Position numbers and translations under genes: made by a program. This document shows positions 3,511-52,854 of a stretch of DNA of 64,000 bases, piece after piece. Within the stretch, counting starts at the first letter, position 1; each line of letters begins with the position of its first letter. Below the pieces are notes generated by a model. That model saw only the letters and a list, made by a program, of their open reading frames with translations. It ran no database searches and was not told the DNA's origin. This stretch comes from Phycisphaerae bacterium (GTDB lineage: Bacteria > Planctomycetota > Phycisphaerae > UBA1845): positions 1 to 64,000 of the forward strand of contig JAJDDW010000071.1 in NCBI GenBank assembly GCA_029260115.1. The letters run 5' to 3'.

Positions 3511-5121
3511 ATGGCTAAGAAGCGGTCGAAGAAGAGTGACCAGAAAAGCGACAACGGAGCTGAGCTCGGTTTCGAGCAGAAGCTCTGGCTCGCAGCAGAT
3601 AAGCTACGGGGCAACCTCGATGCAGCCGAGTACAAGCACGTCGTTCTGGGGCTGATCTTCCTAAAGTACATTTCCGACGCCTTCGAGTCACGCCGTGCCC
3701 AACTTGAAACACTTTGCGACGACAAGAAGAGCGAGTACTTCGTCAACGGTGACGACGATCAGAAGCAAGCGATCCTTGAAGACCGGGATGAGTACCTATC
3801 CGCCAGGGTCTTCTGGGTTCCCGCTGATGCCCGATGGCAGAAGCTCCAAGCGGCAGCGAAAAAGCCTACCATCGGTAAGACCATCGATGAGGCGATGGAA
3901 GCCATTGAGAAAGAAAACGACAGACTCAAGGCAGTCTTGCCCAAACGCTTCGCCCGTCCAGATCTCGACAAGTCTCGCCTCGGTCAACTGATCGACCTCA
4001 TTGGTACGATCATGGTTGGCGACGAAGCTTCCCGTTCGAAGGATGTACTGGGTCGAGTCTATGAATACTTCCTAGGCAAGTTTGCGTCGGCTGAGGGCAA
4101 ACTTGGTGGCGAGTTCTTCACGCCCAGTTGCGTTGTCCAATTGCTTGTCGAGATGATCGAGCCTTATAAGGGTCGAGTTTACGATCCGTGTTGTGGTTCG
4201 GGCGGCATGTTCGTTCAGTCCGAACGATTCGTTGAAGCTCACGGCGGCAAGGCCGGTGACATCAGCATCTACGGTCAGGAATCCAACCCGACAACGTGGC
4301 GTCTTTGTCAGATGAACTTAGCCATACGAGGTATTGAGGCGCATTTCGGTAGTAAATGGGCAGACTCGTTCAGCGAAGATTTGCATAAAGATCTCAAAGC
4401 AGACTTCATCCTTGCTAATCCGCCGTTCAACATCTCGGATTGGGGCGGGAAGGCGTTGCGAGAGGATGCTCGCTGGAAGTACGGGACGCCTCCGGTTGGA
4501 AACGCCAACTACGCATGGATTCAACACTTCGTTCATCACCTGAGTCCGAAAGGTACTGCCGGGTTCGTGATGGCTAACGGTTCGATGTCTGCGAATAATT
4601 CAGGTGAGGGTGACATACGTAAGGCATTGATGGAGGCTGATCTTGTGGATTGCATTATTGCTATGCCCGGTCAGCTTTTTTATACTACTCAGATTCCCGT
4701 GTGCTTGTGGTTTCTGTCTCGCAGCAAAACAAACGGTAAACACCGTAACCGCAAGGGCGAAACGCTGTTTATCGATGCCCGCAAAATGGGCACGCTAGTT
4801 AGCCGAGTTCTACGTGAGCTTTCTGAGGATGAGATTATGCAGATCGCAGGTACTTATCATGAGTGGCGGAGTAAGGGCAAAAGCAAATATGAAGATGTTG
4901 CCGGATTCTGCAAGTGCGCATCACTCGTAGATATACAAAACCATGGCTATGTCTTAACGCCTGGTCGTTATGTAGGGGCCGAGGAAGTCGAAGATGATGG
5001 AGAACCGTTCGAGGAGAAGATGCCTCGATTACTGGCAACTCTGAAAAAACAGTTTGAGGATTCAATGCCGCTTGAAGAGGCCATATTATCAAATCTCTCG
5101 GAGATGGACTATGGCGATTGA
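3511..5121 (+). CDS. hsdM: Type I restriction-modification methyltransferase subunit HsdM
   Basis: 536 aa, the modification subunit of a type I restriction-modification enzyme, which methylates adenine using S-adenosylmethionine. The N-terminal helical HsdM_N domain covers about residues 20-190 ([11 protein letters not shown] onward). The methylase domain follows, with EFFTP at about 201-205, SAM-binding motif [11 protein letters not shown] at about 225-234, and catalytic motif IV NPPF at 303-306. All key residues are present, so it should be active. Start: ATG at 3511 with GGAG 7 nt upstream. Its stop overlaps the hsdS start by 11 bp, indicating translational coupling. First gene of a four-gene operon on the element. 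Confidence 0.95.
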
Positions 5122-6397
5122 ATGGCAAGAAACTGCATTGAGCGATATTTTAGAATCCATTAATACAGGTCTCGATGCGATCAGGCGTGCCCCAATTGTT
5201 AATTTTGAGACTGGTGTCAAATGCTTACGTATACAAGACATTTCTAATTCAAAGCCCTTTTTAAACTGGGGCAATACAGAAGTAAATCAAAAAGACTATG
5301 AAAAATACAAGCTTGTAAAAAATGATATCATCATGGCCAGAACTTGCTCAACTGGTATCAGCCTTCTGATAAAGGAACCGCTGAATGCCGTATTCAATAA
5401 CGGCTTGGCAAGGATTAGATTAAAATTGGACAGGGCATTACCAGAATTCATTGCCTATGTATTCAAATCGAAGGAGTTTGTTGAGTACATTTACGGAATT
5501 TCTGCGGGTACATCTGTTCAGTTAAACATGAGGGTTGGGGATGTTGCTAAATATAAGTTCTTGCTTCCACGATTAAGTACACAAAGTGAAATTGCTCGAA
5601 TCCTAAGAACATTCGACGACAAGATCGAACTCAATCGGCGGATGAATGAGACATTGGAACAGATGGCGGCGGCAACCTTCAAGGCGTGGTTCGTGGACTT
5701 CGAACCCGTCAAAGCCAAAGCGGATGGAGCCAAGAGCTTCCCCTCCATGCCGCAGGAAGTCTTCGATACCCTACCGACCGAATTCACCGACTCTCCCCTC
5801 GGCCCAATTCCCAAGGGGTGGGATGCTGTTGGGTTTGGTGATATTGCTGAGTGCTACGATTCAAAACGAATACCGCTGTCCAAGAGAGAACGATCTCAAC
5901 GCCAAGGGACTTATCCTTACTACGGTGCTGCATCAGTAATGGATTATGTAGACGATTTTCTATTCGACGGCAATTACGTTTTGATGGGCGAGGATGGATC
6001 GGTCATAACTGTCGAGGGCTACCCTGTGCTCCAGTACGTCTGGGGACAATTCTGGGTTAACAATCACGCACATGTATTACAGGGGAAGAATGGCATCTCG
6101 ACTGAACACCTATTACTCAGCCTAAGACAGTCAATCCTTACGCCATTCATCACCGGCGCTGTTCAGCTTAAGCTGAACCAGGGAAACATGAAGCAGATTC
6201 CTTTTGTCTTTCCAACGTCGTCAGTGTCAGCGGCGTTTGTCCGGTCGATTGACCCGCTCTTTGCGAAGTATCGGGCGAATGTTGAAGAATCGAGAACGTT
6301 AACGGCAATTCGAGATGCCTTACTTCCCAAACTTCTCTCGGGCGAGATTCGAGTCGGTGAGACTAAACGCATCGCCGAGGAGGTGGCGTTACAGTGA
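5111..6397 (+). CDS. hsdS: Type I restriction specificity subunit HsdS
   Basis: 428 aa from the ATG at 5111 ([12 protein letters not shown]), which overlaps the end of hsdM. Two target-recognition domains are visible: residues about 1-150, and a second after [11 protein letters not shown], the typical entry sequence of the second domain. Each is followed by a helical spacer ([21 protein letters not shown], and the matching [19 protein letters not shown] at the C terminus). HsdS determines the bipartite DNA target and binds two HsdM. The target sequence cannot be read from the protein. The stretch around 5180-5500 is notably AT-rich compared with the rest of the operon, consistent with exchange of the first recognition domain. 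Confidence 0.93.
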
Positions 6398-7473
6398 AGA
6401 AAGAGGCCCGTCTTCTGTTTGAAAAAGCGTTGGATTCGCTGCTATTGGTGGTTGACCATTTCAACCGACCTTGGGATTGTGGTAGAGCCGACGCCGTGCT
6501 CATTTTCTTCGACCATGCCTTCGAAATGTTACTCAAGGCTGCCATCCTTCATCGGGGAGGACGAATTCGAGAGCGTCGAGCCAAACAAACCATCGGCTTT
6601 GATGCCTGCGTCCGAAAGTCACTTTCTGACGGGGACTTGAAGTTCCTCAGTAAAGAGCAGGCCGTCATTCTTCAAACCATTAACAGTCTTCGTGACGCTG
6701 CTCAGCATCACATCGTTCAGCTTTCTGAGGCTCACTTGTCCATACATGTTATGGCAGGGATGACCTTGTTTAGTGACATTGTCAAAGAAGTATTCGATCA
6801 CGACATCACCGACGATCTGCCTGTGAGGGCTCTAGCAATATCGACGAAGGCACCACTCGACTTGGCTGCTCTCTTTGCAACCGAGGCAGCGGAAGTACGA
6901 AAGCTCTTACAGCCGGGTACTCGTCGCCGCCTGGAGGTGGAAGCTCGGCTGCGTGGACTTGCGATTGTTGAAGGAGCCATGACTGGGGAGCGACTGCAAC
7001 CGACCACCGGAACCCTTAACAAGATAGGCGATGCTCTCTTGGACGGGCGGAGGTGGGATCATGTCTTTCCGGGAGTCGCCTCCATTACGCTTACGAGCGA
7101 CGGACATGGCCCGAGTATCGATTTACGGATCACGAAGAAAGGCGGCACCCCAATCACACTCGTACCTGAAGGAACACCTGGAGCAGCCGTTGTTGCGGTC
7201 AAGCGTGTTGATGAGCTAGGTTTCTATAGCTTGGGGCTGAAGGATCTGGCCAAGACAATTGACCTGTCGCCGCCGAAGACGCTCGCATTCATCAAGGCCG
7301 TCAAACTTCAACAAGACGCAGATTGCTATAAAGAAATCAAGGTTGGACGTACGAAATTCAAACGTTATTCAGAGAAGGCTGTATCCGTCCTGAACGAAGC
7401 CAAGAGCGAAATGAGTCTTGATGAAGTGTGGGTCAAGTACGGTCAAGGAAGTAGGCGTCGAGCTGCTGGGTAG
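6394..7473 (+). CDS. DUF3644-like protein within the hsd operon
   Basis: 359 aa starting at GTG 6394, overlapping the hsdS stop by 4 bp. The N-terminal 140 residues resemble DUF3644: an ALDSLLLVVDHFNRP opening, then DHAFEMLLKAAIL and SLRDAAQHH, the helical core with conserved Arg/His that recalls HEPN-type folds. The C-terminal part (FYSLGLKDLAKTIDLSPPKTL) looks like a winged-helix or nucleic-acid-binding module. DUF3644 genes are often found with restriction systems, but their role is not established; a HEPN-like RNase or anti-phage accessory is one possibility. Position between hsdS and hsdR, with tight overlaps, argues for co-expression. Confidence 0.68.
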   Translation: MKKEARLLFEKALDSLLLVVDHFNRPWDCGRADAVLIFFDHAFEMLLKAAILHRGGRIRERRAKQTIGFDACVRKSLSDGDLKFLSKEQAVILQTINSLRDAAQHHIVQLSEAHLSIHVMAGMTLFSDIVKEVFDHDITDDLPVRALAISTKAPLDLAALFATEAAEVRKLLQPGTRRRLEVEARLRGLAIVEGAMTGERLQPTTGTLNKIGDALLDGRRWDHVFPGVASITLTSDGHGPSIDLRITKKGGTPITLVPEGTPGAAVVAVKRVDELGFYSLGLKDLAKTIDLSPPKTLAFIKAVKLQQDADCYKEIKVGRTKFKRYSEKAVSVLNEAKSEMSLDEVWVKYGQGSRRRAAG

Positions 7474-7484
7474 TGTGAGATTAC

Positions 7485-10400
7485 ATGAGCCGATTTACAG
7501 AATCCATCGTCGAAGAAGCCGCGCTTGAGTGGCTGGAGGGTATGGGTTACTCAACAGCCCACGGCCCCGACATTGCTCATGACGGTGAGTCGTCGGAGCG
7601 AGCTTCCTACGACCAAGTTGTACTGACTGAACGCCTTCACAACTCTCTTACGAATATCAATCCGGAGATTCCTGATGAAGCCATTGAAGATGCGATCAAG
7701 AAAATCACTACGACCGAGAGTCCCACGCTCATCCAGAACAACGAGCGATTCCATCGACTGTTGACTGATGGCGTCGATGTCGAATACCGACGTGAAGACG
7801 GCACCCTCAAGGGCGATAAAGTCCAACTCTTCGACTTCAACGATCCCGACAAGAACGACTGGCTGGCAGTGAATCAATTCACCGTCCAGGAACCACGTGG
7901 GCAGGCTCGCAGGCCCGATGTCGTGGTATTCGTTAATGGGATTCCGCTTGTCGTCATCGAGTTGAAGAACCCGGCTGATGAAGATGCGACGATTTGGTCG
8001 GCGTACAAACAACTTCAGACTTACAATAACGAAATCTCCTCGCTTTTCGTCTTCAATGAGCTACTCATCATTAGCGATGGTCTTGAGGCAAGACTCGGAT
8101 CACTGACAGCAAAGCGTGATCGGTTTATGCCCTGGCGTACCATTGATGGAGAGAACATTGCACCGACTGAACTTCCCCAGCTTGAGACGATGCTCAAGGG
8201 AGTCTTCGACAAGCGGTGGCTGCTCGACCTGATCAAACACTTCTGCGTATTCGAGTCTGATGGTCAAACGACAGCGAAAAAAATAGCGGGTTACCACCAG
8301 TTTCACGCAGCGCGTAAGGCAGTCGTGACCACTCTAGCAGCATCTGATCCAGAAGGTGATCGTCGATGCGGCGTTGTCTGGCACACTCAAGGAAGTGGCA
8401 AGAGTCTCACCATGCTCTTCTATGCTGGCAAGTTGATTGATGAGCCAGCGATGATGAACCCGACGCTTCTTGTCCTCACTGATCGAAATGATCTCGACGA
8501 CCAATTGTTTGGAACGTTTAGCCGGTGCAAGTCGATCCTCCGACAGGCACCAAGCCAGGCTGATAGCCGGGACGATCTCAAGGAGAAGCTGAAGGTCGCA
8601 AGCGGCGGCGTCGTCTTCACGACCATCCAGAAATTCATGCCGAAAGTAAAAGGCGGCGAATACGAAATGTTGTCAGACAGATCGAACATCGTCGTCATCG
8701 CAGACGAAGCTCATCGGTCGCAATACGACTTCATCGACGGATTCGCTCGCCACATGCGAGACGCTTTGCCAAATGCATCATTCATTGGGTTTACTGGCAC
8801 ACCTATTGAGAAGACTGATGCCAACACTCAGGCAGTCTTCGGAGACTACGTTGATGTCTATGATATTCAGCGATCAATCGAAGATAAGGCGACGGTTCCA
8901 ATTTATTACGAGGGTCGGCTGGCGAAGATTGAACTCGACGAAGCCCAGAAATTAACTATCGATGAGGAGTTCGAGGAAGCGACCGAGGGAGAGGAGCTAT
9001 CGCAGCAGGAGAAACTAAAGACGAAGTGGGCGGCGATGGAGGCACTCGTCGGTGCAGAAGAGCGACTACGGCTCACGGCGGAGGATTTGGTTCAACACTT
9101 CGAGCAGCGGTTGGAAGCGATGGACGGCAAGGCGATGATCGTATGCATGAGTCGTAGGATTTGCATGGATCTTCACGACGCAATCGTCGAGCTACGTCCT
9201 GATTGGTTTAACGAAGACGACGATAAGGGTGTTATCAAGGTCGTGATGACTGGTAACGCAAGCGAGGGACCAAGAGTGGCTTCGCATGCGAGGAGCAAGT
9301 CACGACGTGAGCAGTTATCCAAACGATTCAAGAATTCCACTGATCCGCTGAAACTCGTGATTGTGCGGGACATGTGGTTAACGGGTTTTGATTGTCCATG
9401 CCTACATACCATGTACATCGATAAGCCCATGCGGGGGCATGGCTTGATGCAAGCCATCGCCCGGGTCAATCGGGTGTTCAAGGACAAACCGGGCGGGCTT
9501 GTTGTTGACTACCTCGGGATCGCCGATCAGTTGAAACTCGCTTTGGCAACTTATACGGAGAGTGGCGGCAAAGGCAGTACTGCACTTGATCAGAACGAAG
9601 CCGTCGCTGTGATGCTTGAGAAGTACGAGATCGTCCAGGCGATGTTCCACGGTTTTGACTTTACGACTTACTTCACCGGATCACACACCGAAAAGCTATC
9701 TATCATTCCACGATCTATCGAGCATGTACTTCAGCAGGAAGATGGTAAAGAGAGATTCCTCAAGGCAGTCAATGAGCTATCAAAGGCATTCGCACTGTCG
9801 GTTCCACATCCGGAGGCGATTCGTATTCGGGATGATGTCGGATTCTTCCAGACGCTACGTGCTGGAATCATGAAGGCTACGACTCCGGGGAAGAAGACAG
9901 CGGAGGAACTTGATACAGCGATTCGGCAGATCGTATCACAAGCCGTATCTGGCGAAGGCATCGTTGACATTTTTGCCACCGCTGGACTGAAGAACCCGGA
10001 TATTTCGATCCTCTCGGAGGAATTCATGGCGGACGTGGCTAACTTGCCACAGAAGAACCTTGCGGTCGAAATGCTTCGCAAACTACTCAACGATGAGATC
10101 AAGAATCGAAGCAAGCGGAATGTTGTCGAGGCTCGCTCATTTAAGGACATGCTGGAGGCGTCGATCAGGAAGTACAAGAATCGTGGTGTTGAAACTGCCC
10201 AGATCATTCAGGAATTGATCCAAATCGCAAAAGAGATGCGGGAAGCGGCCCAGCGTGGCGAGAAACTGAAGCTGAATGACGACGAACTCGCTTTCTACGA
10301 CGCTCTGGCGGACAACGAGAGTGCGGTCGAGGTACTTGGCGACATGACTCTGCGTGACATCGCCCGTGAAGTGGCCGCCAAGATACGGCAGAGTGCCTCA

Positions 10401-10556
10401 ATCGACTGGACGATCAAGGAAACCGTACGGGCTTCCATGAGGGCAATGGTGAAGCGGCTCCTCCGCAAGTACGGTTACCCGCCCGACATGCAAGAAGGGG
10501 CGACCAAACTAGTGTTGCAGCAGGCTGAATTGATTTGCTCCAACGCAGCAGCATGA
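7485..10556 (+). CDS. hsdR: Type I restriction endonuclease subunit HsdR
   Basis: 1023 aa, the motor and nuclease subunit that translocates DNA and cleaves at unmethylated sites. The N-terminal PD-(D/E)xK nuclease shows RPDVVVF (D at about 145) and VVIELKNP (E159, K161). The superfamily 2 helicase motor shows TQGSGKS (Walker A, about 301-307), ADEAHR (motif II, about 406-411) and GFTGTPIE (motif III, about 435-442). The C-terminal region is helical and should dock onto HsdM/HsdS. Length is normal for the family and all catalytic motifs are intact. ATG at 7485, 11 bp after the preceding gene. Confidence 0.95.
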
Positions 10557-12727: not shown

Positions 12728-14530
12728 CTAATTTTTCATAACTTGTTTCATTTTTTCGAGCTGTTCATCGAATGTTAGCGTTGTATCCGTCGTTTTGATC
12801 GCTTCATGCCAATGAAGGTGCGGAGAGTCATCACTGTACAAGGACTTTTTCCTCTTTTCTGTCTTGTTCGTTAGCTTACCCCTTGCAGGTGTACAGCTAA
12901 CACTTACGAGAGAGAGAGGGGAGAGAGAATTAGACCGGGCTATGCACGGGCTTAACTGTTGTTTTAATCTTAGTAAGCCATACTGCCTACATTTAGAGTC
13001 AGTACGATCGTAGTTATCTAAAGTATGAAGTAACTTAGCATCCCTAAGCAGGTGTTGCATTTTATCCCAAGTTCTTTTTCCGCCAAAAATAGAGTGTGCG
13101 AGCTTATAATAAATACGCCCACTATACTTCATCATATAATCGTAGAACTTCCCGAGCATAGTCAATTTCTTGTAAGAAAAACCACATAACTCTTTAGCTT
13201 TTCGCAGAAAATAAGAACGGTCAATTTTCGCTGAAGTAGCAAAACGCTTTTTATCTTGCTTTCCTCTCTGGTTTTCTGTTCGGTTCTTGGATTTTGACTT
13301 GGTAGGATCGAAAAATTCAGGATTAAAGAAACCCGTCATAATACGACGTGCAAAATCTGCCCGCATGGTCGAGCTATGACAAGTAGTGGAGTCATACTTA
13401 GCCGTAGCAAGTATATAATCGTCAAACTCAGCAATAGCTAGCTCCAGTTTTGATTTATCTCCACCATATTTCCACGTCAGACGTGATGGTATTTTTGCAA
13501 AACGGACATAACGATCATAAGTGTTTTTAATCTTGTTCATTTCAGCGATGAACTTAGGATTACTATCAAGCCCTATACTGAGCATAGACTTTGATTTAGG
13601 CTTAGACGCTGTTACGGCTACCGCTGTTGCATCTTGTGCCTCTTGTTTGGCTACCCACTCAAGTGCAGGTACAAACAGAGCGTCTACGTCTACAGGCGTA
13701 GCTTTGATCCACTCATAATTAAATGTATTGACTACATCTCGTGGATGCTCATCGTCGTATTCGAACTTGGTTTTAAGGGTAAGAGGATTACAGACTTCTA
13801 CCCACCGTTGAGGTAGTCTGATTAGTCTGTTGCGTTCGTCTACTGAAGTTTCGTCGTGTATGTCGTAGTAGGTCTTAAATGCAGGTACTAACTTCTCACG
13901 AAGAGTTTTCACTTTAATGGGACGATTAAATTTTATCCAAGCATATAGCCCCTGTACATGCTCGCCTCTGAAAATGCCTTCAAGTAGTATGTTACCGGGG
14001 CTAGTAGTCCAAACTATATCAAAGCTTAGTTCTTCCGCTAACTCGATGAGGTTTTTGACTTTCGTAAAAAACTCATGATCTGCTTGTTGTCGTTCTTGCG
14101 GTGTATCGTGGTTATCATACCGATGACGGTCGCAATCAATTTGAAACCCTTGAATGAAACTCTCATCGGGATATGTGGCTAGCAACCAATGCTTATCGTG
14201 TTTGTGCCATTCTTTTCGGCTTATATTGGCTAAGTAGCTACCTCTTACTTTTCCTTTTTTGTCATGGTAAGCTAACTTTTCTAGCGGGACTCTTCGCCCG
14301 TTGTTCATCCGAAAACCGTCTTCGATTGTTATGTTTTTGTGGCGCTTGATGGTTCTAGGGTATGGGCGCGGAAACAGCATAAGTTCTTTTGCAAAGCGAG
14401 TGCGATGTGCAGGCGTTATCCATGACGAAACAAAATCCATTTCAGCGGGGGGACGGTCTGCAAAGACTGGTTCTTCCCACGGTCCTGTGCCAATCGTTTC
14501 TAAAATTTTGTCGTTGTTACCGTTTATCAT
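12728..14530 (-). CDS. Putative primase-polymerase-like replication protein (600 aa)
   Basis: Large soluble protein. Between residues 120 and 245 there are three blocks in the order expected for archaeo-eukaryotic-type primases of mobile elements: QGFQIDCDRHRYDN (about 128-140, a D-x-D metal motif), a strand and turn ending TTSPGN followed by GLYAWIKF (about 175-201), and NRLIRLPQRW (about 234-243). The C-terminal half is basic and may bind DNA. Together with an upstream attenuator-like leader this suggests the element's replication-initiation gene. No helicase Walker motif is visible. The start is ATG at 14530 with a weak AGGGA ribosome-binding site. The primase call is inference from motif spacing; it could be another nucleic-acid enzyme. 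Confidence 0.5.
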   Translation of the reverse strand: MINGNNDKILETIGTGPWEEPVFADRPPAEMDFVSSWITPAHRTRFAKELMLFPRPYPRTIKRHKNITIEDGFRMNNGRRVPLEKLAYHDKKGKVRGSYLANISRKEWHKHDKHWLLATYPDESFIQGFQIDCDRHRYDNHDTPQERQQADHEFFTKVKNLIELAEELSFDIVWTTSPGNILLEGIFRGEHVQGLYAWIKFNRPIKVKTLREKLVPAFKTYYDIHDETSVDERNRLIRLPQRWVEVCNPLTLKTKFEYDDEHPRDVVNTFNYEWIKATPVDVDALFVPALEWVAKQEAQDATAVAVTASKPKSKSMLSIGLDSNPKFIAEMNKIKNTYDRYVRFAKIPSRLTWKYGGDKSKLELAIAEFDDYILATAKYDSTTCHSSTMRADFARRIMTGFFNPEFFDPTKSKSKNRTENQRGKQDKKRFATSAKIDRSYFLRKAKELCGFSYKKLTMLGKFYDYMMKYSGRIYYKLAHSIFGGKRTWDKMQHLLRDAKLLHTLDNYDRTDSKCRQYGLLRLKQQLSPCIARSNSLSPLSLVSVSCTPARGKLTNKTEKRKKSLYSDDSPHLHWHEAIKTTDTTLTFDEQLEKMKQVMKN

Positions 14531-15036: not shown

Positions 15037-15984
15037 ATGATTCCATCGATAGATCACTGGTTAGGACAAGAGAATGCCATTCGGCGTTTCAAGGTTGCAC
15101 TCGAAGCGAGTTGGAGTGATGGCACTCGGCTTCCTCACATGCTGTTTACGGGGCCTCCAGGCGTTGGCAAGACGTTGCTTGGCCAACTCGCCGCCAGAGA
15201 AATCGGGGGGCATGCAGAAGAACGAATTGCCCAAGTTCTGAATACGCCGGGGACGCTTAATGGCTTCCTAATGGCAGGAAAAGACAAGGGAGTCTTGTTC
15301 ATCGACGAGATACACGAATTACTGCCAACCTTGCAAGTACGCCTGTACAAAACGATGGAAGAACAGCAGCTTTCGCTCCAGACGAATTCCAACAAGACCG
15401 TCACGATGCCGCTGAAGAACTTCACGCTGGTGGGAGCAACAACCGATGAATTCCGCATTCTTGCTCCATTGCGTGATAGATTCAAAGTTGTTTTGCCTTT
15501 CACTACATACGATGTCGAGTCACTTGCTCGCATCACAATTCAACGGGCTAAGCATAGTTCTATAGATATAGAACCAGCGATTGGGCTTGAAATAGCAAGG
15601 CGATCCAAAGGCACTCCAAGGCTTGCGATACGGCTACTTGAATCCTGCCACCGTTACGCTCGCAGTATCGGCGACGATCGGGTCACGATGAAGCACTTCA
15701 TGGCTACGGTTGAATTGGATGGTCTCGATGCACTCGGTCTCGGATCTGACGAGCAACGATACCTTCAAGCGCTCGCTAGCCGTCACGGCAAACCCATGCG
15801 CCTGTTTGACCTGGAGGCAAACGTCGGCGTCCATCGTCGAACAATTCAAGATGTCATCGAGCCATTCTTGATCCGAAGCGGACTGGTAGAACGCAATACA
15901 CAAGGTCGAATTTTAACCGAGACTGGCATGCGGCATCTTGGCTTGCTGCCGGATCTCGAAACCGTGAGTGAGGTCACATCATGA
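15037..15984 (+). CDS. RuvB-like Holliday-junction branch-migration ATPase
   Basis: 315 aa, with the full RuvB architecture: Walker A GPPGVGKT (39-46), Walker B VLFIDEIHE (86-94), sensor I TLVGATT (130-136), arginine-finger region LRDRF (145-149), sensor II GTPRLA, and a C-terminal winged helix (residues about 235-305). RuvB is a hexameric motor that moves Holliday junctions with RuvA. No RuvA or RuvC gene is near. Divergence from chromosomal RuvB (for example EFRILAPLRDRF in place of the usual GLLTSPLRDRF-type segment) and its location on the element suggest a dedicated motor for element replication or recombination. GAGG precedes the ATG. Confidence 0.85.
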   Translation: MIPSIDHWLGQENAIRRFKVALEASWSDGTRLPHMLFTGPPGVGKTLLGQLAAREIGGHAEERIAQVLNTPGTLNGFLMAGKDKGVLFIDEIHELLPTLQVRLYKTMEEQQLSLQTNSNKTVTMPLKNFTLVGATTDEFRILAPLRDRFKVVLPFTTYDVESLARITIQRAKHSSIDIEPAIGLEIARRSKGTPRLAIRLLESCHRYARSIGDDRVTMKHFMATVELDGLDALGLGSDEQRYLQALASRHGKPMRLFDLEANVGVHRRTIQDVIEPFLIRSGLVERNTQGRILTETGMRHLGLLPDLETVSEVTS

Positions 15985-16487
15985 GTAAGCCAGATGTGTT
16001 GAAAGAGGTCGTAACTGTCAGTGAAATGGCACGCATGTGCGGTCTGTCTAGGGCGAGATATTATCAACTGGCCAAAGAAGGCATCTTTCCTACGCCGTCA
16101 CGCAACCCGCAAACTGGTCGCCCGTACTACGACCGTAAGCAGCAAGAGCTCTGCCTGTTGATTCGTCGGACGAACAAGGGTGCCAATGGTCGAGTCGTAC
16201 TCTTTTATGGTCGCCGTCTCGAAACTGTTCCGAGGCTTCCATCTAAGCGACAGCGAGTCATTAGGAAGAACCCGAATGTTACCCCTGTCGGTATTTCACC
16301 CGTATTGGTGGAACTTCGGAGTGGGCTGACTCAGCTTGGAATGTCAGACGTCTCGATGGATCAGATCCGTAATGCATTGGCGACGGCGTTGCCAGACGGA
16401 CTCGATGGACGGGATGAAGGAGAGGTTTTGCAGGCTGTATTCACCCAACTGGGATGTCGGAATTCAGATGATAACGTTAGCGGATAA
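15981..16487 (+). CDS. Helix-turn-helix DNA-binding protein (168 aa)
   Basis: The ATG overlaps the RuvB-like stop by 4 bp (ATGA), so the two genes are translationally coupled. Residues about 10-45 form a MerR/excisionase-type helix-turn-helix: VTVSEMARMCGLSRARYYQL, a wing, then TGRPYYD. The remainder is basic, with a C-terminal helical region. Likely a regulator or recombination directionality factor working with the neighbouring recombinase at 16593. An inverted repeat that overlaps this gene's stop codon and recurs before the recombinase is a plausible binding site. Confidence 0.65.
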   Translation: MSKPDVLKEVVTVSEMARMCGLSRARYYQLAKEGIFPTPSRNPQTGRPYYDRKQQELCLLIRRTNKGANGRVVLFYGRRLETVPRLPSKRQRVIRKNPNVTPVGISPVLVELRSGLTQLGMSDVSMDQIRNALATALPDGLDGRDEGEVLQAVFTQLGCRNSDDNVSG

Positions 16488-16574
16488 TTATCATTATCTG
16501 CTCAATCGAAGCATGAACCTGTCTACTATCTGTCTTATTTCTGTTGAGAAGGCGTCAAATATTCAGCGGATAAT
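16479..16574 (+). promoter_or_regulatory. Repeated AGCGGATAAT operator-like sites
   Basis: AGCGGATAAT (16479-16488) and ATTATCTGCT (16493-16502) form a near-perfect 10-bp inverted repeat with a 4-bp centre. AGCGGATAAT recurs at 16565-16574, 18 bp before the recombinase start. Three half-sites in 96 bp upstream of the gene suggest regulation, possibly by the HTH protein encoded just before. Confidence 0.5.
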
Positions 16575-16592: not shown

Positions 16593-17465
16593 ATGAATGA
16601 TTTACCAACATGTGTTGATGATTTTATTTCAGCGAATGATTTCAGTAGTCATACCGTCAAAGCTATCAAAGCTGACATTCGAAAATTCATCACATGGTTT
16701 TCAACTGCTAACGGTGAGCGATTCGACCCAACCCGAGTGACTGTCCGAGACGTGGTCGATTTCAGGGAGCACTTGTCCCGTGTGCGACGGCAAGCGGTAT
16801 CGACGACCAACCGAGCTTTGATTTCTGTACGGAGCTACATGGAGCATCTGCTAAAGTCTGGAGCCCTTCCAACAAATCCAGCCAAGTCCGTAAAAGAGAT
16901 ACGACGGATGCCGACTGTACCGAAGGGACTAACTCCGCCACAAGTACGCAAAATTTTGCGGGAAATTGAAATCCGCCAAGATCGTAAAGCTGCTGCCATC
17001 ATAGGCGTCATGCTGTTCGGTGGACTGCGAGCATCCGAAGTCGTAGGTCTGGAAATTGATGATGTAACCATCGCCCCGAGATCCGGGCAACTTGTATGTC
17101 GTCATGGAAAAGGTAACAAGCAACGCATCATACCTCTGTCGCACGAGGCTCGACGGCTGTTACAGGAATACTTAGAAACCCGTCCACTTTGCGACTCGGA
17201 CGCTGTTTTCATTGGTGAGCGTGGAGCCCTATCGTACCACGGATTGCGGGCGATCTGCTCGAAGTATGCTGCAATCAGTGGCGTCAAGTTCACGGCACAT
17301 TCCCTTAGGCATAGCTTCGCTCATCGTTTCCTGAGTTCTACGGAAAACGACATCGTCTCCCTCGCTCAAATACTTGGTCACGAGAACCTGAATACGACCT
17401 CAATGTACACCAAACGGCGGCAAGAGGAGCTACAACAGAAGATTGATGGTTTGCGGTATGAGTAA
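16593..17465 (+). CDS. Tyrosine recombinase, XerC/XerD type
   Basis: 290 aa, the usual length for this family. The N-terminal SAM-like core-binding domain covers residues 5-95. The catalytic domain has every active-site residue: R146 (GGLRASEV), a beta-hairpin lysine near GKGNKQR (about 173-177), H236 and R239 (HSLRHSFAH), H263 (LGHENLNTTSMYTK) and nucleophile Y272. The start ATG is preceded by AAGGA. It is complete and should be active, acting on dimer resolution, excision or a secondary site. A 63-aa membrane protein follows at once, an arrangement that recurs at the element's right end. Confidence 0.92.
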   Translation: MNDLPTCVDDFISANDFSSHTVKAIKADIRKFITWFSTANGERFDPTRVTVRDVVDFREHLSRVRRQAVSTTNRALISVRSYMEHLLKSGALPTNPAKSVKEIRRMPTVPKGLTPPQVRKILREIEIRQDRKAAAIIGVMLFGGLRASEVVGLEIDDVTIAPRSGQLVCRHGKGNKQRIIPLSHEARRLLQEYLETRPLCDSDAVFIGERGALSYHGLRAICSKYAAISGVKFTAHSLRHSFAHRFLSSTENDIVSLAQILGHENLNTTSMYTKRRQEELQQKIDGLRYE

Positions 17466-17470
17466 ACGAG

Positions 17471-17662
17471 ATGATGACCACGACAACAATCGAGTTGACC
17501 ACTGCTGAGCGAGTGTACCGCTTTATTGCTCAGGCGATTCCGCCGATCCTTGCCTCCGGATACGTTTCCAAAGTGGAGGCGATAGGGCTCGCCGGAGTGT
17601 TCCTGCTAACACTTGCGATTGCTGCCCTCTCGTTCTACCGCCGTTATCATCGTTTCCGTTGA
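17471..17662 (+). CDS. Small single-pass membrane protein (63 aa)
   Basis: Starts 6 bp after the recombinase stop and is probably co-transcribed with it. It has a Thr-rich N terminus, one transmembrane helix at about residues 39-54 (EAIGLAGVFLLTLAIAALSF) and a short basic tail (YRRYHRFR), which predicts an N-out/C-in orientation. Not recognised. It shows the integrase-then-membrane-protein order seen three more times in this element. Confidence 0.6.
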   Translation: MMTTTTIELTTAERVYRFIAQAIPPILASGYVSKVEAIGLAGVFLLTLAIAALSFYRRYHRFR

Positions 17663-19931: not shown

Positions 19932-20423
19932 ATGTCACGTAATTTATCAATCTTAGTTTCTGCTTTAGGTCTTCTGGCTTGTGGACAAATAGCAAATGGA
20001 CAGCAAGGCGAAGTTGTAAGCTACCATGGGATATTCGATACACCACAAACTATCCCTGTTCCTGCGGGCGGATTCGTTCTTACAGATATTATTATTTTGG
20101 ATGGTCAGGGTGCAATTACGATCATCACACTAAACGAAAAGCTAATGGCAGTCACGACTCCAAAAGCACGATTTCGTGCGACTGAGGGACAGCAAATGAG
20201 TTATCATCTTCAATCTGGAATTGTATTTGCGGGGGGAAGTGAAATTAGTTTCGATGGTTCCTTTAACATCCCAGCCAACGTCACTATTTCCGGCTACATT
20301 CCTACTGCTGCATCGTCTGGAACTGTCCCTGCAATTTCTACTTGGGGAATAGCAATTATGCTCATGCTTATCGTCGCAACAGGTACTCTGGTATTCAGAG
20401 GTAAGACGACGCACATTCAATAA
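19932..20423 (+). CDS. Exported protein with IPTL-CTERM-like sorting signal (163 aa)
   Basis: Starts after AAGGAGG. The N-terminal signal peptide (LSILVSALGLLACGQIANGQ) is followed by a small beta-rich domain of about 100 residues with no recognised family. The C terminus has VPAISTWG, a 20-residue hydrophobic helix and a basic end (RGKTTHIQ), the three-part IPTL-CTERM layout read by exosortase-type enzymes. No sortase gene is in the window, so the host must supply it. The signal peptide and sorting tail closely match the next gene. Confidence 0.72.
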   Translation: MSRNLSILVSALGLLACGQIANGQQGEVVSYHGIFDTPQTIPVPAGGFVLTDIIILDGQGAITIITLNEKLMAVTTPKARFRATEGQQMSYHLQSGIVFAGGSEISFDGSFNIPANVTISGYIPTAASSGTVPAISTWGIAIMLMLIVATGTLVFRGKTTHIQ

Positions 20424-20437
20424 GAAAGGTGCATTTC

Positions 20438-21118
20438 ATGTTACGGAATTTATCAATCATTACATTTAGCTTCTTAATGATCGGACAAATTGCAAACGCA
20501 CAAGTCACTTGGTACGATGATGAATCGACTTGGCTTACTGAAACAATCAATCCTTCGCTAATTGATTTTGATAATTTGTCGCTCGCTGAAGTCATTTCTA
20601 TGCAATTCTCTGGTGTAACGTTTAGCTCTACAAATACTGGTCAACCTCATGTGGACGATGCAGATCCAGGTGCAGTAGTTCCAAAAAGCTCACCCAATAA
20701 TATGCGGGTGAGAGATCCTAATCTTGGAGGTGGCGATTGGAAAGCAACGCTTAGCTCTCCTCGATCAGCGGTAGGTTTTTGGGTTTGGGATTTGGAGTGT
20801 GTAGGTTTTCCTGAATCTAAAGCAATCCTGAAGACTCAAAATGGTGGAACAATTGAGAAAAACATCTGTGAAATTCATTCCGCATCCGCTGGTCAAGATT
20901 GGCGTTTTATTGGCGTTACATCTAATGATACTATTGTCAGCATCGAGGTGATCCCTGATGGGGTTAACGGCACGAGTGGCGATTTTATGGTGTTCGACAA
21001 TTTTTCCACAGCAACATCTATACAGTCTATCCCCGCAATCTCAACTTGGGGGTTGTCAATTATGATTATGCTCATAATCGCATCAGGTACATTGGTATTC
21101 AGAGGTAAGACGACGTGA
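20438..21118 (+). CDS. Exported protein with IPTL-CTERM-like sorting signal (226 aa)
   Basis: The ATG at 20438 is preferred over the upstream GTG because AAAGG lies 8 nt before it. The signal peptide (RNLSIITFSFLMIGQIANAQ) resembles that of the preceding gene. The mature domain (FDNLSLAEVISMQFSGVTFSS, and a later VVPKS... VGFWVWDL region) has the look of PEP-CTERM-type exoproteins: a jelly-roll-like beta domain. The tail IPAISTWG plus helix plus RGKTT is nearly identical to its neighbour's. Tandem, 14 bp apart, likely one transcript and a duplication of the targeting signals around different passengers. Confidence 0.72.
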   Translation: MLRNLSIITFSFLMIGQIANAQVTWYDDESTWLTETINPSLIDFDNLSLAEVISMQFSGVTFSSTNTGQPHVDDADPGAVVPKSSPNNMRVRDPNLGGGDWKATLSSPRSAVGFWVWDLECVGFPESKAILKTQNGGTIEKNICEIHSASAGQDWRFIGVTSNDTIVSIEVIPDGVNGTSGDFMVFDNFSTATSIQSIPAISTWGLSIMIMLIIASGTLVFRGKTT

Positions 21119-28712: not shown

Positions 28713-29981
28713 CTAATCGCTGATTTGCTCTCCGTCGAAGTATTCGGCTCCGATCAGATTGACGACGGGGACCAGATAATCATCAGGCGTATCATCCATG
28801 TAGAAGACGCATTGACCGTCTACATCATGCCCTAGAAACGCCTCAATCTCGCTCTTCGTTCGACGGTTGTTGCGTCCGACCGTTCCGCCCGCATTGCGGA
28901 AATGTTTGAACCAGACACCATCTAGTATCTCACAAGCCTCTCTGAGTCTGTCAAAATTCTCCGCTATTTTCTCACTTTTGTATTGTTTTTTTCCGTCGTT
29001 TGAAAAGACAAACTCGGTTCGTGGCTCTTCGTATTCTCGCCACCGATTTATCGCTGCAATCGTTGATGGTAGCAGCGGCGTATAACGGTCTACGTTTGTC
29101 TTGCTGCGACTCAGCGTGAATAGTGGGAGGTTCCCGTTAAGAATCAAATCGTTGTACGTTAGGTTGCAAATATCCGAGTTGTCGCAGCCACATTGTACGG
29201 CGAGTCTGAGTACCGCAGACCATTGTACGCCTACTCGCTTGACCCGATTCGCTTGCTTGACGTTGTTCGCTCTAGCCAAGTGGGGCATACCCGCTCTACC
29301 CCGTTTCGTCCCGCTACCCTTATGCTTGCGAAGGGGCAGCGAATCGGCGTACTCATGTACGTCGATGTTAGCCCACTCTTCCGCCTTGGCTAGCAGTTCG
29401 TGGAAATGTTCAACCGACAACGCTGTACGGTTTCTCTTATGAGGCTTAGGCTTTTTGTACTCAAAAACTTCTAGCCAATGATCGAGTTCAGGAGGAAACG
29501 TCCACTCGGTCAACTTGCGAGCAGCCTTGAGTACAGCACCAACGGGTATCAGTTGTTGCCTACGCCATTGCTCGCCTCGTTCGCCTTTCGTTTCGTCAAC
29601 CTGATTTTGCCACTCGACGAAGTGGGCCTTCGTCATTCCGGACAGGTCACAATCGTCGCAAAATTCTGCAAAAGCATCGAAGACAGTCTTGTACTCATTA
29701 AGATGTTTGTCACTTAGATTGTTTGCGAGCTTTCGCTTGTACCAGACGGGGAAACATTCTGACAAGCGGTAGCCGACTTTAGGAGTACGTCCTTTCGTTC
29801 CTAGTCGTTTATTGATCGCCTCTTGGACTTTGACAAGAACGTGAGTGTACCATTTTTCATTCCAATTGGGTTTCTTAACAGTAGCAACACGTTCTGATGC
29901 AACAGGATGCTTGCACGAATGGCTGTGTTGCGATCTGAGGTGTTTTCGTGGCTTGGTGGAGTGATGACTAGGTCGTTGGTG
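28713..29981 (-). pseudogene. Tyrosine recombinase without a usable start codon
   Basis: The C-terminal half shows recombinase features: CGCDNSDICNLTYNDL where the first catalytic Arg should be, KHFRNAG with the second Arg (about residue 290 from TTG 29765), LGHD and a Tyr at about 322. The first Arg is missing and the His of the H-x-x-R box reads Lys. The coding frame continues upstream from TTG 29765 for 72 codons to a stop at 29982-29984 with no ATG, GTG or TTG. The gene is therefore probably 5'-truncated or frameshifted, and likely inactive. Confidence 0.6.
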
Positions 29982-30568: not shown

Positions 30569-31993
30569 TCAATTGCCGAGTATCGCCTTGCGAGCTTTCG
30601 TCAATGCCTGCTTTGTTTCCGACGCTATCCGCTGAGTAGTATACCTGTCTTTCATCCCGCCAGAATGTCCCATTACCCAATCTTGAGCTATCGCATGTTC
30701 CGCACCCATTGCGGTACTGGTCATTTTCCTGATGCCGTCAAATTTTACCGCAACAGGCAGACCAGCGGCGGACCTCAACTTGCGATGCAACCGATCAACT
30801 CGGTGAGTATCCCACTGCTCGCCCGATCCTTTTCTTTTGGAGTTCCGTGGTTGGACAAACAGATATTGTGAGTGGTTGCCGAATTCGTCGCTGGCTTTGA
30901 AAGCCTTGATAGCCTTGATAGTTTCCTTCCAAACGTAGGCGACATGCTGAATACCGTCTTTCTCACGATAGCTATCAAGAATCCTGTCTTTCAAATCCAA
31001 ATCGTCGTGTTCCAATTCCGCTACTTCCAGCGGATGAAAAGCGAAGTTGGCTGCGGACATATACATTGCGTAGGCAAACTTTGAGTGATTCTTGGCGGCA
31101 GCCAACAGCATTCTAAATTGCTCAGGTTTGACTGGCTTGATCGAAGGTATCTTGGCTTTGGTTTTCTTGTCTTGTGACCAGTCTTGACAATTATCTCGTA
31201 TCCTTCGCTTCAACCGTTCGATTGTTGGCGTATGTATTTCAAACAACTTGCGAGCGTGATTTAGGACACCTTGGACAAGTATATAGTGATTCTGTTGCGT
31301 TCTTAGGGAGTATTGTTTTTTCGTTCTTAGGGATACGGTTTCTTGGACGCAACGCTTGTAGTTTTGAAGTAAAGCTGGCGTGATTTCTTCCGCTAAGTCT
31401 ACGGCAACACCATCCATGAAGAACGCCCAAATCGTTTTGGCGTCTTTGGTTTGGCTCGGACGCTTGAACTTCTTGTCCTTAGTGAAACGGTCTATCATTT
31501 CTTGAAGGGTTAAGGGTGTTACGATGGGCGGTAAGCTGTGGATATTTTGAAGCTCTGGTATGCCCACCAATTCCGCAAATTCTTTGCGTGTGGCGGGGTT
31601 GCCCAATTGCTCCCGTACCCAATCAGCCAGATCAGTACGATCCATAATCAGACCGCCTGGGTTGTTTTGAAAATCTGCAATCGTCAGATCGGCTGGCGGG
31701 ATTCCACCTTTGGCGTGAGTCTTGAGAAATGTCAAGTCATTCGGTTCTCGACCCTTCTGCCAACATTCATGTTCGTAGATCGCTCGCCGCAAGTACGCCA
31801 GCCCGACCTTGCCACTCTTGCCGTAGTAGTGGCGTCCCACCTTGTCATCAGCGATGCGGTAGTACCTACCCGTTGATTTGTGGATGCGAAGCCCTCGGAC
31901 GGCTTCGCCCGTATCAGGATGGACCACAAAAGCAACGGGTTGCCTTCCACCTTTGCGTTTCTTACTACTCTTGAAGCGATTCGTCTTGGTCAT
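30569..31993 (-). CDS. int: Element integrase, tyrosine recombinase family
   Basis: 474 aa. The N-terminal region (HPDTGEAVRGLRIHKSTGRY) looks like an arm-DNA-binding domain, followed by a core-binding domain (about 160-260). The catalytic domain has VKFDGIRKMTSTA (Arg 422), VMGHSGGMKDRYTTQR (G-H 442-443, nucleophile Tyr 451). The first catalytic Arg region reads FAFHPLEVAELEHDDLD, which lacks the canonical Arg, as in some divergent planctomycete integrases. Position 90 bp inside the right attachment repeat and pointing away from it, beside the intact tRNA, makes it the integrase of this element. Confidence 0.85.
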   Translation of the reverse strand: MTKTNRFKSSKKRKGGRQPVAFVVHPDTGEAVRGLRIHKSTGRYYRIADDKVGRHYYGKSGKVGLAYLRRAIYEHECWQKGREPNDLTFLKTHAKGGIPPADLTIADFQNNPGGLIMDRTDLADWVREQLGNPATRKEFAELVGIPELQNIHSLPPIVTPLTLQEMIDRFTKDKKFKRPSQTKDAKTIWAFFMDGVAVDLAEEITPALLQNYKRCVQETVSLRTKKQYSLRTQQNHYILVQGVLNHARKLFEIHTPTIERLKRRIRDNCQDWSQDKKTKAKIPSIKPVKPEQFRMLLAAAKNHSKFAYAMYMSAANFAFHPLEVAELEHDDLDLKDRILDSYREKDGIQHVAYVWKETIKAIKAFKASDEFGNHSQYLFVQPRNSKRKGSGEQWDTHRVDRLHRKLRSAAGLPVAVKFDGIRKMTSTAMGAEHAIAQDWVMGHSGGMKDRYTTQRIASETKQALTKARKAILGN

Positions 31994-32082: not shown

Positions 32083-32116
32083 TTACTGGGCGATACAGGA
32101 CTTGAACCTGTGACCT
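32083..32116. repeat. Right attachment-site repeat
   Basis: 34 bp identical to 1359-1392. It covers the last 30 nt of tRNA-Val and 4 nt beyond. Identity ends inside the tRNA toward its anticodon arm, so the crossover lies within this block. Confidence 0.9.
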
Positions 32117-32159
32117 TTCGGGTGTGATCCGAACGCTCTGCCAACTGAGCTAATCGCCC
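32087..32159 (-). tRNA. tRNA-Val (anticodon CAC)
   Basis: Folds perfectly as a cloverleaf: acceptor GGGCGAT with ATCGCCC, D-arm GCTCAGTTGGCAGAGC, anticodon stem TTCGG/CCGAA around loop ATCACAC (anticodon CAC at 32126-32124), T-arm with GGTTCAAGTCC. Discriminator A; CCA is not encoded. It is intact because the element restored its 3' end on insertion. It is the integration target. Confidence 0.95.
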
Positions 32160-52794: not shown

Positions 52795-52854
52795 AACTCA
52801 ATCCTTTTCTCATCACCTACTGACCCTGAACAAGTATGTGACCCTGCTAGGCAG

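Follow-up and report, generated by a model that had tools for sequence, protein, structure and literature searches.

A RuvB paralogue, a helix-turn-helix protein and a recombinase form a recurrent module with its own dif-like site on integrative elements of Planctomycetota

Here we describe a three-gene module, accompanied by a putative recombination site and a set of short direct repeats, which recurs among the elements of Planctomycetota and was found in a 64,000-nucleotide stretch of a Phycisphaerae bacterium (positions 1 to 64,000 of contig JAJDDW010000071.1, assembly GCA_029260115.1; hereafter the window). The first gene encodes a RuvB-type AAA+ protein of 315 aa, designated RuvBL (15037-15984, + strand), the second a helix-turn-helix (HTH) protein of 168 aa (15981-16487, + strand), and the third a Xer-type tyrosine recombinase of 290 aa (16593-17465, + strand). 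The ORFs of RuvBL and HTH share 4 bp. An initial annotation had described this succession of an overlapping RuvB-like and HTH pair with a recombinase behind it, and its coordinates were confirmed; the dif-like site, the repeats and the borders of the element described below had escaped it. The existence of the module, with its site and repeats, is well supported. As to its function, we propose tentatively that it is self-contained and serves recombination, probably the resolution of multimers, with a filament of the HTH protein loading a RuvA-independent RuvB paralogue beside the site. A bolder formulation would be that the RuvB paralogue, with a filament-forming HTH protein in the place of RuvA, has become the dedicated motor of this recombination system, corresponding on the element to FtsK at dif and serving tyrosine and, at one locus, serine recombinases; this we regard as possible but rather doubtful.

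The trio sits within a 30.7-kb integrative element at a tRNA-Val gene. The left attachment repeat (34 bp, 1359-1392) is a copy of the tRNA-Val 3' end and is 100% identical to the right one (34 bp, 32083-32116), which overlaps tRNA-Val(cac) (32087-32159, - strand) and covers its 3' end. A tyrosine integrase of 474 aa (30569-31993, - strand; Phage_integrase 30.8 bits) adjoins the tRNA. A tRNA end, flanking direct repeats and a tRNA-adjacent integrase, the marks of a tRNA-site integrative element, are thus all present, and on the basis of the perfect repeats, their overlap with tRNA-Val and the neighbouring integrase we place the trio inside such an element; the mobile setting proposed in the initial annotation was therefore correct. 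In the sister species G024 the same tRNA-Val is occupied by a different element of ~45 kb (G024:C101 7839-52845), with repeat copies at 7839-7875 and 52809-52845 of its contig. The integrase-containing stretches of the two elements are 80% identical at the DNA level, and the chromosomal gene past the left end is identical in kind. Given this separate tRNA integrase, and the G024 element in the same tRNA-Val, the recombinase of the trio is not the tRNA integrase. No clean empty site was obtained from the sister G023, whose tRNA-Val is intact: the right flank was found there, but the left-flank gene was absent from the 14 kb examined.

The element carries further cargo. A type I restriction system (M, S, R) occupies 3511-10556, and a 359-aa gene between its S and R genes matches the PADLOC candidate family PDC-S19 (497 bits). 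An additional tyrosine recombinase is encoded at 28713-29765 (- strand; Phage_integrase 42 bits), making three such enzymes in the 30.7-kb element. Facing the module is an ORF of 600 aa (12728-14530, - strand) with no match in Pfam, PHROG, NCBIfam or PADLOC and with no relatives found in the other module loci; it may have a replication or primase role. Also, two secreted-looking proteins (19932-20423 and 20429-21118) have a common C-terminal signal with FRGKTT, which we take to resemble the IPTL-CTERM sorting signal.

To our knowledge, RuvB is regarded as a housekeeping motor with RuvA as its obligatory partner. RuvBL is like the bacterial RuvB of the RuvAB motor in its fold, AAA+ motifs, lid and C-terminal winged helix. 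The Pfam domains RuvB_N (111 bits), AAA_lid_4 (41 bits) and RuvB_C (65 bits) all score above cut-off, solved RuvB structures match its AlphaFold model (pLDDT 92.6) at TM 0.87-0.90 among the best rows, and alignment demonstrated that Walker A, Walker B, sensor 1, the arginine finger and the sensor-2 arginine are retained. RuvBL falls under both NCBIfam RuvB equivalog cut-offs (246 versus 282 bits and 234 versus 299 bits), so that "divergent RuvB" with all ATPase motifs, as the initial annotation put it, is an accurate description. The difference from bacterial RuvB lies, besides these scores, in a separate clade, a shorter docking hairpin, the lack of a ruvA neighbour and the HTH protein as a fixed partner. 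In a maximum-likelihood tree, 26 of the 27 RuvBL rows grouped together with support of 100/100, to the exclusion of the remaining 29 RuvB rows, of which 26 come from the same taxonomic family and the others from E. coli, Acetoanaerobium and one phage record. The RuvBL of locus L042 took an intermediate position on a long branch, with no placement in either group, and that of L093 was excluded because its branch was too long. RuvBL thus lies outside the chromosomal clade and is 33% identical to the RuvB of its host, which has its own ruvC, ruvA and ruvB clustered on contig C55 of the chromosome; the gene is neither a member of the host RuvB group nor the only copy in the genome.

Using RuvBL as a query at E <= 1e-60, we found matches in 8 of 114 genomes within the order and, at the level of the class, in 13 of 397. 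In all 14 loci retrieved in this way an HTH gene follows RuvBL, and a recombinase comes next in all but L060, where the recombinase position is lost at a contig end. With the HTH profile as the sole query, 392 genomes from the phylum yielded 14 places in 9 genomes, 13 of the places being new, and this RuvBL-blind search led to a RuvBL gene directly upstream of HTH in 13/13 new loci (that of L093 strongly diverged). The trio reported in the initial annotation therefore recurs in other elements, and the window, the 14 loci from the RuvBL search and the 13 from the HTH search make up the 28 RuvBL loci considered here. A second HTH-based scan gave ten loci, five of them already known. Among the five new ones, L139 and L140 carry the full trio, L141 has a RuvBL remnant in the form of a fragment along with a disrupted HTH, and in L142 and L143 an HTH without a RuvBL match is followed by an ordinary phage-type integrase. 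Since L142 and L143 are without RuvBL and L141 retains only a fragment, RuvBL is not indispensable to the HTH protein. The HTH and phage-type integrase pairs (L142 5968-8194, L143 3706-5400) represent a two-gene form of the module.

The cargo around the modules differs between loci. Genes for Amidoligase_2, GGACT, a putative zinc peptidase and a glutamine amidotransferase recur nearby (L041 5641-7058, L042 12280-15936, L053 14551-15940, L060/L061) and possibly form a mobile peptide-modification gene set. TOTE-type archaeo-eukaryotic primases are encoded near two modules (L040 6856-8565, L053 343-2265), and an ArdC-type anti-restriction protein, of a family present in 6 loci, directly upstream of RuvBL in L088 (7887-8798). 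In G024, a promoter-like stretch 5' of RuvBL is duplicated within and between elements (L039 721-821 and 1668-1768; L042 9806-9999). It holds a palindrome-like TTTTCCGCGAAAA core and is possibly a shared operator. Two further identities were considered for the trio and set aside. No PADLOC defence model matched it, RuvBL and HTH giving weak AAA/HTH cross-hits of <=22.7 bits and Xer none, on which ground a defence system was rejected. A viral or plasmid origin was discarded because the HTH protein found no match in plasmids, phages or viral contigs and RuvBL no close one there; the RuvBL matches from plasmids and phages were all <60% identical and mostly ordinary-looking RuvB genes.

The recombinase of the window, assigned from Pfam, NCBIfam and an alignment, has a complete R-K-H-R-H-Y set of catalytic residues. 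R, K, H and R are present in 13/13 aligned rows, and the following H and Y in 12/13, the L054 protein being truncated. It scores under the XerC and XerD equivalog cut-offs (171 versus 335 and 159 versus 330 bits) and under that of the integron integrase model (92 versus 265 bits). The host has a XerD above cut-off on contig C17 and a further strong match on C80. Following the recombinase gene is a small hydrophobic ORF of 63 aa (17471-17662, + strand) with no Pfam match; like-placed hydrophobic ORFs occur after xer in L039 and L040. Of the 28 RuvBL loci, 17 have the recombinase type of the window (type 1) and 7 a second tyrosine recombinase type (type 2), which is 23-24% identical to that of the window in the four cases aligned. 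L042 has a diverged recombinase of 200 aa as called, L093 has RuvBL and HTH with no recombinase directly behind them, and L060 ends at its contig border. In L087, RuvBL and HTH are followed by a serine recombinase of 199 aa (Resolvase 142 bits). The type of recombinase is thus swapped between loci while RuvBL and HTH remain.

Next to the recombinase gene is a dif-like core site of 28 bp (16477-16504), with a left arm at 16477-16487, a 6-bp spacer at 16488-16493 and a right arm at 16494-16504; the TAA of the left arm doubles as the stop codon of HTH. Two additional copies of the left recombinase arm are found on the + strand, one within the HTH 3' end (16464-16474, -13 bp from the core left arm) and a third arm shortly before the xer start (16563-16573, +86 bp from the core left arm). 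The offsets of -13 and +86 are exact in 7/7 close loci, and the HTH-xer interval is 105-108 bp in the seven closest loci. The pattern GATAAN6WTATC is present in the HTH-xer interval of 14 of the 17 type-1 loci and has no further occurrence in these loci, over 700,794 strand-bases; because it was derived from the loci in which it was counted, the contrast between inside and outside is the informative part. The exceptions are L056 and L089, which have variants, and L085, which has nothing. Among the other loci the pattern was found in 1 of 10 (L095). When the dif-like dyad was scored alone, p <= 0.03 was reached in 8 of the 17 type-1 loci, so automatic detection works in about half. In L094 an extra ORF lies between HTH and the core, which remains with xer.

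The core site is single in the 94.7-kb contig of the window and in a putative 63-kb element of G675, delimited on the basis of a repeat and a tRNA-Pro. Its exact form occurs once in the genome. With one mismatch allowed, the genome yielded six matches, among which the site itself was counted again on its opposite strand, versus four for a reversed control pattern. A second core copy, which could have served as an attachment site or inversion partner, is absent from the window, the contig and the exact matches genome-wide, and integration by the trio recombinase and inversion of the hsdS type were set aside for this reason.

Between the core and xer lie four direct repeats with an 11-bp period (16520-16563, + strand; the period was computed and the unit borders were read from the sequence), which are candidate binding sites for the HTH protein. 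Over 23 intervals the lag-11 signal gave a Stouffer Z of 11.1 and lag 22 a Z of 7.2, with all other lags from 4 to 25 at <=1.2; the maximum in 60 random draws of the same length from the same loci was 2.2. A thinned set of 18 loci still gave 8.8 at lag 11, and the six type-2 loci alone 6.5. Since the type-2 loci by themselves have the signal, the repeats track RuvBL-HTH and not the type of recombinase. The periodicity analysis left out L058 (short called interval), L060 (contig end), L087 and L093 (no xer) and L094 (inserted ORF), and for both the periodicity and the core counts several interval ends were placed manually where xer probably starts.

Profiles and a structure model (pLDDT 81, pTM 0.45) suggest for the HTH protein a winged helix of the MerR/AlpA/BldC kind, MerR-like in the model, and a C-terminal helical domain. 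Its best PDB neighbours are MerR, BldC and the excisionase RdfS; these are weak matches, none at E <= 0.001. BldC binds head-to-tail on direct repeats (PMC5859096), and RdfS has been likened to BldC as a filament former (PMC11963761). By analogy, we infer that the HTH protein would bind the 11-bp repeats.

Our tentative model for the module is as follows. The Xer-type recombinase would act at the adjacent core on multimers or cointegrates of the element, in its excised or replicating state, and resolve them. Resolution is favoured over integration, inversion and cassette capture because of the one core per element examined, the separate integrase and the serine resolvase in L087; that the element needs multimer resolution is assumed. 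The HTH protein would build a head-to-tail filament on the 11-bp repeats, like BldC, RdfS and lambda Xis on theirs. This filament may shape the synapse and would replace RuvA as the loader of the RuvBL ring. RuvBL itself would be a RuvA-independent translocase on double-stranded DNA which aligns, activates or clears the recombination complex, in a manner comparable to FtsK at dif. We infer every step of this mechanism.

An alternative that we consider unlikely assigns the module to the control of excision. The HTH protein would then be a recombination directionality factor of the AlpA/Xis/RdfS type and the module would govern excision of the island, with xer and its site providing a switch or another path to excision and with RuvBL helping to dismantle the integrase complex. 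Consistent with this, the HTH relatives of L142 and L143 precede a phage-type integrase in the absence of RuvBL, that of L142 exceeds the Phage_AlpA cut-off (23.9 versus 21), the PHROG excisionase profiles give weak matches to the HTH protein, and RdfS is among its weak structural neighbours. However, the repeats and arms are at xer, which is ~15 kb distant from the attachment sites; in the window, the tRNA integrase is a different protein with no HTH of the trio family directly beside it. Furthermore, with one core per element the trio recombinase has nothing to excise.

A role in replication or restart, which we judge somewhat less probable again, would make HTH and RuvBL the initiator and ring acting on iteron-like 11-bp repeats, with the recombinase resolving the resulting dimers. 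The direct repeats are indeed in helical phase, plasmid backbones commonly join replication genes with a resolvase, and the TOTE-type primases are close to the L040 and L053 modules. Such primases were found, however, in only 2 of 28 neighbourhoods, in a scan of selected proteins, and RuvB is not known as an initiator.

The initial annotation had suggested a dedicated branch-migration motor. In its strict form, in which RuvBL moves the Holliday junction of the element's own recombinase and borrows RuvA from the host, we find this improbable. Tyrosine recombinases, the usual downstream partners of RuvBL, pass through a Holliday junction, and serine recombinases make none. The serine resolvase in place of the tyrosine recombinase in L087 implies, if that locus works, that junction branch migration is not the shared role of RuvBL. 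The RuvB fold and ATPase motifs of RuvBL speak for such a motor, as does the presence of RuvA in the host; the only RuvA_N match in the genome, though, is the chromosomal ruvA, and no RuvA is found next to RuvBL, neither of the two following genes being RuvA by Pfam, as had been noted from the start. The part of RuvB that meets RuvA has also changed. In RuvB, domain III of RuvA docks on the presensor-1 hairpin together with helix alpha-3 (PMC9477746); this hairpin is 1-6 residues shorter than in host RuvB in 18/18 aligned RuvBL rows. Additionally, the N-terminal Arg preceding a conserved Pro is absent in 16 of these 18 rows and the Asp of the signature E-D pair in 15, where the two columns were matched to the numbering in PMC9477746 by our own reading. 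The shortened hairpin and the lost Arg and Asp fit, but do not prove, a motor that may have lost RuvA.

In G024, homologous flanks enclose two unlike modules, L039 and L042, whose RuvBL proteins are 61% and 28% identical to that of the window; these flanks begin no more than ~75 bp from the coding sequences. Whole modules, or parts of them, are exchanged between elements. That the trio is a nested mobile unit, inserting into larger elements by means of its own recombinase, could be read from these unlike modules within the same flanks and from the variable cargo, but is very improbable, as the homologous flanks begin near the coding sequences and not at core sites, the module ends lack a core site, only a single site is present, and exchange by homologous recombination explains L039 and L042 better.

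Parts of the multimer-resolving module proposed here have counterparts in known systems. In plasmid multimer resolution of the cer/psi type, a Xer core lies beside accessory sequences bound by helper proteins; the module differs in that its helper is encoded by the element, the recombinase is its own and an AAA+ motor is present. Single-recombinase Xer systems with an adjacent site are already known, and so are winged-helix filament proteins in recombination. In XerS/difSL and XerH/difH (PMC5357621), a single tyrosine recombinase is genetically linked to a neighbouring dif-like site, whose two inverted arms flank a central region. The module of the window likewise has one tyrosine recombinase with an adjacent dif-like site, but it is located on integrative elements, its site is of 28 bp with a 6-bp spacer, two extra arms and 11-bp repeats, and RuvBL and HTH are in the operon. 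With the filament proteins BldC (PMC5859096), RdfS (PMC11963761) and Xis, the HTH protein would share a MerR-like winged helix and, at its putative target, direct repeats spaced by roughly one turn of the helix; in contrast to them it has an extra C-terminal helical domain and is in an operon with a RuvB paralogue, its DNA binding being predicted. A literature search that covered few of the subscription journals found no published description of a RuvB paralogue in such a recombination unit.

The findings from this analysis suggest that the recombination system of a mobile element has recruited a motor from DNA repair. A family of integrative elements in planctomycetes can be recognised by its RuvBL-HTH module. 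If the proposal is true, a whole clade of RuvB paralogues, associated with an HTH protein and with recombinases that can replace one another, would represent a second way of loading and using the RuvB motor, and it would become testable whether recombinases beyond XerCD, XerS and XerH depend on a dedicated DNA translocase.
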